DNA of 11,359 bases, taken from assembly GCA_027063755.1 (NCBI GenBank), contig JAMORD010000041.1, positions 1-11,359 of the forward strand. The letters run 5' to 3'. Below the pieces are notes generated by a model. That model was not told the DNA's origin. It did no database searches and saw only the letters and a list, made by a program, of their open reading frames with translations. A program made the position numbers and the translations under genes. The stretch's first letter is position 1. The number at the start of each line of letters is the position of its first letter. This DNA is from a bacterium (GTDB taxonomy: Bacteria > Coprothermobacterota > Coprothermobacteria > Coprothermobacterales > JAADFF01). Below are positions 2,801-5,573 of this stretch, in pieces.

Positions 2801-4156
2801 ATGCTTGATATAGAATTACAAGATGGAGATATTCTGGAATACAGGGTATATTCCAAACAGCTTAAAGATGAAATGATAGTATTCAGAGCATATATACACG
2901 GAGATATATCTCCAGAGTTTATAGCAAACAATACAGATATATTCACCGATTTACCAATTTCAGGCAAAGTTTTACCTAAACCATATATTATCGGCAATAT
3001 AAAGCCCTTCGCCCCAACACTTATAGAAGTACCACCAGAGGACAAACATAAATGGCAACCCGTATCATCACTTAAAGACAAAGTTGTATTTGTACTCGTT
3101 CATGGCATCAATACAGAAGAAATACTTTTATCTGATCCTGACCAATATGATATTTGGAGAACACCTTACAAATACTATATATGGGATAAAGCACATGAGC
3201 ACATTTATAAAAATATAGAAAACGCCACAATTTTGCATTACATATATCCATCATCTATGGAAAGGCTAAAAACACATGCTCAAGATCTTAGAGACAAACT
3301 TCTAAACACAGATATAGATAAAGCTAAAGCCATTTTCCTCATTGGGCATAGTATGGGCGGACTTGTCATTAGACAAACGCTTCATTGCAGTAAATGGCTT
3401 AGAGACATTACCACGCATGTATTTACCCTTAACACACCACATAGAGGTAGCCCACTGGCATCTTTAATGTTTACTCCACCGGAATTTTGGCAATGGTTAG
3501 AAAACAGAATTGATGAAGACAAACTAACATTGGTAAGAAATATTAGACTTATAGCATCATTAACAGCTCACAGTGGAGATGCTGTTATGTCGCAGGGGTA
3601 CCTTGATTTAAGATGGGATACCATGGATAAAATTAACAATTTCAAACAAATGCTATCTCCCGAAATATATAATCTCAATACAACAGAGCAATTTTCGCGT
3701 TACACATTTACAACATCAACAATCCCAAGAAAGAATATCTCCTATCCAATAAACAAAGTGGCCGAAATGGTATATCGCGATTCAAAAAACCTCATAATAC
3801 TCACCGTACTTCAAAAACTTGTTGGAACTATGGAAGATATCATAAATGAAATTCCTTGGAACGAAAACAAAGACGATGTCACTTCACCAATGAATCCAAT
3901 ATACTATACATCAAAAGATCATGTAGGTCTTATTCTCTTGCAAAAGCTTATGGAAGCCATGGGCGAGGTAATAGGAACAGGTTTATGGCAGGAAGGTGAT
4001 GGCATGGTTCCTGTATCCAGTCAAATCCCAGTGAAATATGTAGAGAATGGTTTTATCTTTGATGTATTAGGACCAATGACAGCAGATCACATAGATATCT
4101 TTACCAGCCCAAAGGTATGGTCGGCCATTGTTGAGAAGGTGAAGACATATATCTGA
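2801..4156 (+). CDS. Alpha/beta-hydrolase, lipase-like, cytoplasmic
   Basis: This 451-residue protein has the parts of a serine esterase or lipase. They are VLVHGIN (98-104, oxyanion-hole HG), the nucleophile elbow GHSMGG (182-187, Ser184), LNTPHRGSPLA (210-220), the acid region EGDGMVPVSS (398-407, Asp400) and DHIDIF (429-434, His430). The order and spacing fit a PGAP1/DUF676-like lipase fold, although the substrate is unknown. Residues 1-90 form an unassigned leading region that is also kept in the decayed neighbour, so it is probably part of the family. No signal peptide or membrane segment is seen. The ATG at 2801 has AGAGGGTG just upstream. Residues 325-406 contain two copies of a 43-residue unit. 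It follows the MFS gene by 25 bp and precedes its own pseudogene paralogue. Confidence 0.85.
   Translation: MLDIELQDGDILEYRVYSKQLKDEMIVFRAYIHGDISPEFIANNTDIFTDLPISGKVLPKPYIIGNIKPFAPTLIEVPPEDKHKWQPVSSLKDKVVFVLVHGINTEEILLSDPDQYDIWRTPYKYYIWDKAHEHIYKNIENATILHYIYPSSMERLKTHAQDLRDKLLNTDIDKAKAIFLIGHSMGGLVIRQTLHCSKWLRDITTHVFTLNTPHRGSPLASLMFTPPEFWQWLENRIDEDKLTLVRNIRLIASLTAHSGDAVMSQGYLDLRWDTMDKINNFKQMLSPEIYNLNTTEQFSRYTFTTSTIPRKNISYPINKVAEMVYRDSKNLIILTVLQKLVGTMEDIINEIPWNENKDDVTSPMNPIYYTSKDHVGLILLQKLMEAMGEVIGTGLWQEGDGMVPVSSQIPVKYVENGFIFDVLGPMTADHIDIFTSPKVWSAIVEKVKTYI
3773..4030 (+). repeat. In-frame tandem duplication of a 129-bp unit inside the hydrolase gene
   Basis: Residues 325-363 align without gaps to residues 368-406 at a constant offset of 43, with 13 of 39 identical by my count. 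Landmarks are SK (328/371), LQKL (337/380), M (344/387), W-x-E (353/396) and V (360/403). The second unit contains the catalytic region around Asp400; the first has a degenerate version, WNENKDDV. The decayed paralogue downstream has only one unit. Confidence 0.6.
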
Positions 4157-4165
4157 TAGCGATAT

Positions 4166-5313
4166 ATTAAGAGGGCAGCATTGTGTAATGGCAAAGGAAA
4201 ATCCATTTAGAAAAGAACACATCACTATCTTTAGGGCATATATAAGCGCTGACATATTTCCTAACACTACTATCTACTATTGATACCATTGATATACTAC
4301 AACGCACCACGACCGAGTCATCACTGGATACAACCTTTCAGGCAGAGATGGTTATGCTTGATTAAGACAATCTGATAGAATATCATTCCGTAAAACACTT
4401 AGAAGGTCAAGAAGTTTTTATACCCGTGCATGGTATCAATGCATCGGAAATTACTGAGGAAACTTTTACCGCAACATTTTACATAAAACATCGCAGAAAA
4501 ATTGTGCATAGCCATATAAAAAAGCACTTTCCCGATGCCACTATTCTTCATTTTCTCTACCAGCCGTCCAAGAAAATACTCAAAGAAAACGGAGATAATT
4601 TTATACACATCGTAGAGTCATTATCTCAGCTATCATATATACGACAGGTTATTGTCGTGCAGAACTCATTATCAGATATGCCATAAACAATAGCCCCATA
4701 ATAAGGGCATTACAACCTATAGTACTAACAATTAATGCTCCCCATCGGGGTACACCACTGGTATCTCTATCATTTGCACCACCTCAGTTTTGAGAATACG
4801 CCAGTGCCATATCAGGAAATACCAAAGAAGTCTTGTCAATCACTAAAGACCTGAAGCAAACATTAACACTGACATACATGACAGGAGTTGTTATGCCACC
4901 AGGGGATTAGGCTCTAAGATGGGATCATGAGCACTTTGACCAATTCCCCTCAATGGTATCCCAAAACCCTATACAACCTTAACACCAGTGACAGATATAT
5001 GAACTATATATTCTCATCATCGGTTATACCAAGACATCACAAAATAGATACTCTCAAAGCACTTATAGAAAAATATCAATACAATCCTATGACAACCCGC
5101 ATTGGGCTATTTCTATGTCACAGACTTATTACAGATATAGGTAGACTGTAAAAGTTAACAGGTGGCCAGAATCAGATGGTATCACTCCCCTCAGTAGCCA
5201 GCTACCTGTAAGAACCTATGCGTTTTATACCTATAGGACCATTTGAGGGAGACCACATAGGCATTATTCTCAAAGACAGTATGTGGGACAAAAGCCTATA
5301 TACTTTAAAACAA
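4166..5313 (+). pseudogene. Decayed tandem paralogue of the lipase-like hydrolase
   Basis: Pieces of the upstream hydrolase are recognisable in order along this stretch, but in changing frames with stops between them. ITIFRAYISADI (from about 4221) matches MIVFRAYIHGDI. EVFIPVHGIN (from 4411) matches VVFVLVHGIN, and DATILHFLY matches NATILHYIY. NAPHRGTPL (after 4704) matches NTPHRGSPL, with the following TGG now TGA at 4791. ALRWD (after 4910) matches DLRWD. LYNLNTSDRY matches IYNLNTTEQF, ESDGITPLSSQLPV matches the Asp motif, and GPFEGDHIGII matches the His motif. Stops include 4281, 4363, 4684, 4791, 4908 and 5149. The Ser elbow reads roughly VQNSLSD, so the nucleophile context is lost. A start-like ATG at 4188 with AAGAGGGC upstream remains. 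It cannot encode an active enzyme; short peptides from it are unlikely to matter. Confidence 0.88.
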
Positions 5314-5335
5314 ATGGGGGACGGTAGTCCCCCAT
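5306..5335 (-). terminator. Terminator of the coiled-coil gene
   Basis: A perfect 9-bp hairpin, ATGGGGGAC/GTCCCCCAT with a four-base loop, occupies 5314-5335. On the minus strand it is followed by TTGTTTTA, and it lies just past the stop at 5340. On the plus strand no T-run follows, so it should stop mainly minus-strand transcription; it also marks the right end of the pseudogene homology. Confidence 0.75.
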
Positions 5336-5339
5336 AACA

Positions 5340-5573
5340 TCACTCAATGTCTCCACATCTGGACTTGTATTTTTCCAGCTTCTCACGCAACATCTGAATT
5401 TCTCTTTTCAGCATACGGTTTTCTGCCTCATAACCATCAAGGGCAATTTGTGTCTGCTGCAACAGTCTTGAGGCCTCAAAATACTTAAACTTATAAGATG
5501 AGGCAAGGCTCTCAAAGTCCATAGCCATCTTACGCAGGCGTGCAACTTCTTCCTCAAGCTCCCATGTAGTCAT
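5340..5573 (-). CDS. Small coiled-coil protein of unknown function
   Basis: This 77-residue protein is almost entirely predicted helix with heptad-like spacing of leucines, for example LEEEVARLRKM near the start and NRMLKREIQMLREKLEKY near the end, separated by a Tyr/Phe/Ala-rich middle. It has no Cys-metal motif apart from a single Cys near the C-terminus, and no signal peptide or membrane segment. The gene looks real: AAGGAG precedes the ATG at 5573, a TATAAT box lies at 5615-5620, and a strong terminator follows the stop. It is divergent from the ZIP transporter gene and could be an oligomeric cytoplasmic scaffold or a partner protein, but nothing here assigns a role. Confidence 0.7.
   Translation of the reverse strand: MTTWELEEEVARLRKMAMDFESLASSYKFKYFEASRLLQQTQIALDGYEAENRMLKREIQMLREKLEKYKSRCGDIE

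Follow-up and report, generated by a model that had tools for sequence, protein, structure and literature searches.

A near full-length hydrolase pseudogene, probably lost in one lineage from an old tandem pair of serine esterase/lipase-like genes

In a member of the Coprothermobacterales, an intact alpha/beta-hydrolase gene (copy 1) is followed by the decayed remains of a second hydrolase gene (copy 2). We conclude that the two very probably represent an old and already diverged tandem pair, in which copy 2 was inactivated in this lineage and has been drifting since, while copy 1 has been kept under selection. The DNA analysed, referred to here as the window, corresponds to a complete contig (C41; 11,359 bases). 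Comparison within the genus involves two genomes, that of the window and a sister genome, the 'Dictyoglomota bacterium' MAG G001, in which the corresponding region lies on contig C74 (JAADFF010000076.1; 12,706 bases).

The intact hydrolase and the relic downstream

The sequence-only reading of the window had placed an intact hydrolase upstream of a ruined one, and the intact gene was recovered as an open reading frame of 451 amino acids at 2801-4156 on the forward strand, supported by Pfam matches and by comparison with the sister genome. Its product contains the HG motif VHGIN, the nucleophile elbow GHSMGG, the Asp motif EGDG and the His motif ADHIDI, and exceeds the gathering scores of PGAP1 (4e-9; 36.9 bits vs a curated cut-off of 24.3 for PF07819), LCAT (6e-6) and DUF676 (2e-4; 21.3 vs 20.3 bits for PF05057). 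The predicted residues of the candidate triad, Ser184, Asp400 and His430, whose catalytic roles are assigned from the motifs, are invariant across the three intact proteins. The encoded enzymes would act as esterases, and they would be located in the cytosol, since no signal-like N terminus was seen by eye. No NCBIfam match came close to any cut-off, and in a profile search of the PDB the matches to known lipases and to BlEst2 were confined to the elbow region (best E 6e-4). AlphaFold, run on a three-row alignment, gave a mean pLDDT of 40, a value that supports no claim on the fold.

Copy 1 also contains approximately 43 residues that are missing from its sister counterpart in the alignment (approximately 3769-3900, forward strand), and that sit between the elbow and the Asp motif. 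Part of this extra segment is similar to the sequence after it (identity at 10 of 25 residues; score 46 vs a shuffle mean of 19, with 0 of 2000 shuffles scoring as high), and the similarity at the DNA level is weak (11 vs a null mean of 8.7). It is possible that the extra segment is an internal duplication.

The copy 2 relic, a full-length pseudogene, extends over 4149-5319 on the forward strand; it was characterized by aligning it, with frameshifts allowed, to copy 2 of the sister, which is intact, by the sensitivity of this alignment to the penalties, and by DNA alignment, motifs and a relative-rate test. The first 8 bases of the relic overlap the end of copy 1, and its 3' limit lies at about 5319-5324; the interval 2801-5313 proposed earlier therefore located the pair correctly but stopped slightly before the end of the relic, and the two copies overlap within it. 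At the DNA level, the relic is homologous to copy 1 beyond chance (local alignment score 409; shuffled sequences: mean 244, sd 13, maximum 294), and tblastn pieces over the relic had E values of 1e-12 and 1e-5. In total, the description of this stretch as a full-length hydrolase relic with its motif order kept was confirmed.

The relic has lost its start codon, which is ATA at 4149. On one corrected path it contains four in-frame stops (TAA at 4186, TAA at 4363, TGA at 4791 and TAG at 4908), and laxer settings add a fifth at 4168; thus, the at least six stops counted from the sequence are present in one uncorrected frame, but only four or five remain once the frame is corrected. By contrast, the several frame changes described at the same time held up, with 6-8 frameshifts (about 7) depending on the penalties chosen. 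Altogether, the relic carries approximately 11-12 lesions and is still near full length. The gaps in the DNA alignment are small, the largest spanning about 11 bases, and the part from about 4267 to 4335 is too diverged for good alignment. The longest open pieces left are of 74 and 86 codons, the latter at 4426-4686. As previously read, the Ser elbow has decayed while the Asp and His motifs have not: the relic keeps VHGIN, ESDG and GDHIGI, whereas the elbow is GYCRAE compared with GYSLGG in sister copy 2, the Ser codon AGC having changed to TGT by substitution. Because two thirds of the relic residues still match, the persistence of the Asp and His motifs does not speak for a kept function.

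Errors of assembly or sequencing in a MAG could make an intact gene look as if it carried stops and frameshifts, and the draft of the source genome is fragmented (1.5 Mb, 251 contigs, 87.9% complete). However, on the same 11 kb contig all nine neighbours compared have clean frames, with 84-95% amino acid identity to the sister. Moreover, among 79 sister ORFs from sampled contigs with an orthologous region in the window's genome, four were broken, each by a single frame change or by no more than two stops, and some of these four are probably not real genes; none of the 79 comes near the damage of the relic, with its approximately 11 lesions. Finally, several substitutions at the nucleophile elbow are not expected from errors. 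After this background check on assembly error, a concern that the sequence-only reading had raised, an artefact appears very unlikely as the source of the lesions.

Orthology and age of the duplication

An intact second copy in a related genome, the search for which had been suggested as a check, was found in the sister: both hydrolase copies are intact there, with 408 and 400 amino acids, and the gene order is as in the window. The 8-base overlap between the start of copy 2 and the end of copy 1 is common to the two genomes, and both flanks of the pair match gene for gene, which is consistent with the earlier observation that no transposon ends lie nearby. One gene of the region, a helicase-topoisomerase-like ORF at 1-936 on the reverse strand (L018:10374-12704 in the sister), is truncated by the contig end; judged by eye it resembles reverse gyrase, suggesting a thermophile, and the host bacterium is probably heat-loving.

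In the frameshift-aware alignment, 258 of 390 residues (66%) are identical between the relic and sister copy 2 (score 1203; sister residues 1-398), the alignment taking in 390 of the 400 residues of the sister protein. By contrast, the relic and copy 1 of the window share 127 of 381 residues (33%; score 355). In a tree, the copy 1 pair was set apart from the copy 2 sequences with support of 99/98; in the same tree the node uniting the relic with sister copy 2 is open, and the long branch to the outgroup could be misleading. That the relic is orthologous to sister copy 2 is thus drawn mainly from the identities of 66% vs 33% and from position.

The tandem arrangement on the same strand with a common motif order would also be expected if copy 1 had recently been duplicated in place and the new copy had then decayed fast. 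However, recent tandem duplicates are closer to each other than to their orthologues, and sister copy 2 shares twice as much identity with the relic as the neighbouring copy 1 does; moreover, the orthologous pair, intact in the sister, contradicts a recent event. We regard such an event as extremely unlikely. Because the sister keeps the same pair intact and the relic is closer to sister copy 2, the duplication predates the species split. The sequences indicate that the duplication is old, that the copies were already distinct genes of approximately 38% identity before the split, and that the loss of copy 2 is lineage-specific and younger. Therefore, the reading of a duplication followed by decay and caught midway was right in that both happened, but not in joining them as one recent event. 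Because two genomes of the genus were compared, the loss can be dated to the time since the split and no finer.

In the history that we propose, the ancestor of the genus would have carried two tandem, slightly overlapping serine esterase/lipase-like genes that had by then diverged considerably. Copy 2 would have become dispensable in the window's lineage and been inactivated, after which unselected drift would have brought stops and frameshifts and the loss of the start codon and the nucleophile, with selection on copy 1 continuing throughout. Copy 2 may have been dispensable because its function overlapped with that of copy 1 or of a third paralogue located elsewhere.

A third alpha/beta-hydrolase paralogue of 391 amino acids, with TTG as its first start codon, is intact in both genomes (L020:4413-5588 and L019:3978-5153). 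It is 85% identical between them, with about half the amino acid differences of copy 1, and is more distant than copies 1 and 2. Together with copy 1, this paralogue could cover the function lost with copy 2.

Loss of constraint and its timing

The relic and sister copy 2 differ at 0.233, 0.166 and 0.503 of codon positions 1, 2 and 3, respectively, and copy 1 and sister copy 1 at 0.221, 0.098 and 0.478. The position-2 excess of the relic (about 0.07 per site) is borderline when taken alone (p = 0.07). The dN/dS comparison proposed from the sequence could be computed, with a pairwise NG86 omega of 0.12 in the relic and of 0.10 in copy 1, which is 72% identical to sister copy 1; however, this ratio fails to separate the two, as synonymous sites approach saturation (dS ~1.8). 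Therefore, omega was replaced by relative-rate counts, i.e. residue changes unique to one sequence in columns that are constant in the others. With copy 1 as outgroup, the relic had 22 such changes and sister copy 2 had four (p = 0.0005), while the copy 1 pair showed no imbalance, with 12 changes in the window and seven in the sister (p = 0.36). As a separate observation, both hydrolase copies (2801-5319) diverge faster than every flanking gene, with 72% and 67% amino acid identity vs 84-95%.

The omega of 0.12 vs 0.10 suggests that most of the divergence of the relic predates the end of selection, and the third-position bias together with the position-2 excess fits that selection on the relic ended recently. 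In simulation, four stops corresponded to approximately 100-200 unselected substitutions, or 0.08-0.17 per site, and the position-2 excess is of the same order. Assuming that copy 2 was formerly as constrained as copy 1 and that the length of the lineage is about half the flanking-gene dS (typically ~1.1-1.3 between window and sister), the relic would, very roughly and as a crude estimate, have been dead for about the final tenth of the interval since the two species separated.

The relic retains open pieces of 74 and 86 codons and has so far escaped deletion, and its 3' end carries a conserved hairpin; these features would be in line with a relic that still functions, e.g. as a short peptide from the 86-residue piece or as an RNA. 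This hairpin (5314-5335, reverse strand; pattern scan, folds with z of -2.8 and -4.7) is terminator-like and is also found in the sister (L018:6091-6112), where two stem pairs are changed on both sides yet still pair. However, the hairpin is accounted for by the convergent neighbour gene at 5340-5573, and the 22 vs four unique residue changes relative to the intact orthologue speak against constraint; a functional relic is in our view highly improbable. It is also improbable that the relic has been retained longer than is common among bacterial pseudogenes with part of it under selection, e.g. a 3' end doubling as terminator of the convergent gene. Under the favoured history of inactivation and drift, the relic shows three features of a bacterial pseudogene, i.e. 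homology over most of its length, disabling mutations and release from constraint, and would be expected to yield no functional product.

Distribution and comparison with known families and pseudogenes

Full-length relatives of the hydrolases were found in two of 386 genomes, both in this genus, and within this search five relatives from the order and two from the phylum had no full-length hydrolase relative. A contig scan with copy 1 alone as query gave no match, and in an alignment-based scan the sister was found, the only other matches being two weak ones in Methylovulum, with 27-30% identity in the surroundings of the elbow. Copy 1 resembles the PGAP1-like, DUF676 and LCAT serine esterases (PF07819, PF05057 and PF02450) in that it passes all three gathering cut-offs around the nucleophile elbow and has the triad motifs in order. 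It is unlike these families in that its full-length relatives are confined to the genus, and elsewhere only the elbow surroundings match.

Taken alone, the relic is of little significance; it does, however, illustrate cleanly how a small genome loses one gene of an old tandem pair, and the intact orthologue, the intact partner and the flanks are all there for comparison. It also calls for caution in annotation, as gene callers may list its fragments as short hypothetical proteins.

Pseudogenes form a background of 1-5% in most prokaryotes (Liu et al. 2004, PMC522871). Like bacterial pseudogenes that arise by lineage-specific loss from paralogous pairs (PMC522871, PMC2916853), the relic is disabled while a syntenic orthologue is intact in a relative. 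In Salmonella, most pseudogenes carry just one inactivating mutation, and old pseudogenes with multiple lesions are rare (Kuo and Ochman 2010, PMC2916853); unlike these, the relic has approximately 11-12 lesions at near full length, which places it on the uncommon side without making it surprising. Altogether, the relic has the appearance of an ordinary bacterial pseudogene, mildly unusual in being near full length despite heavy damage.
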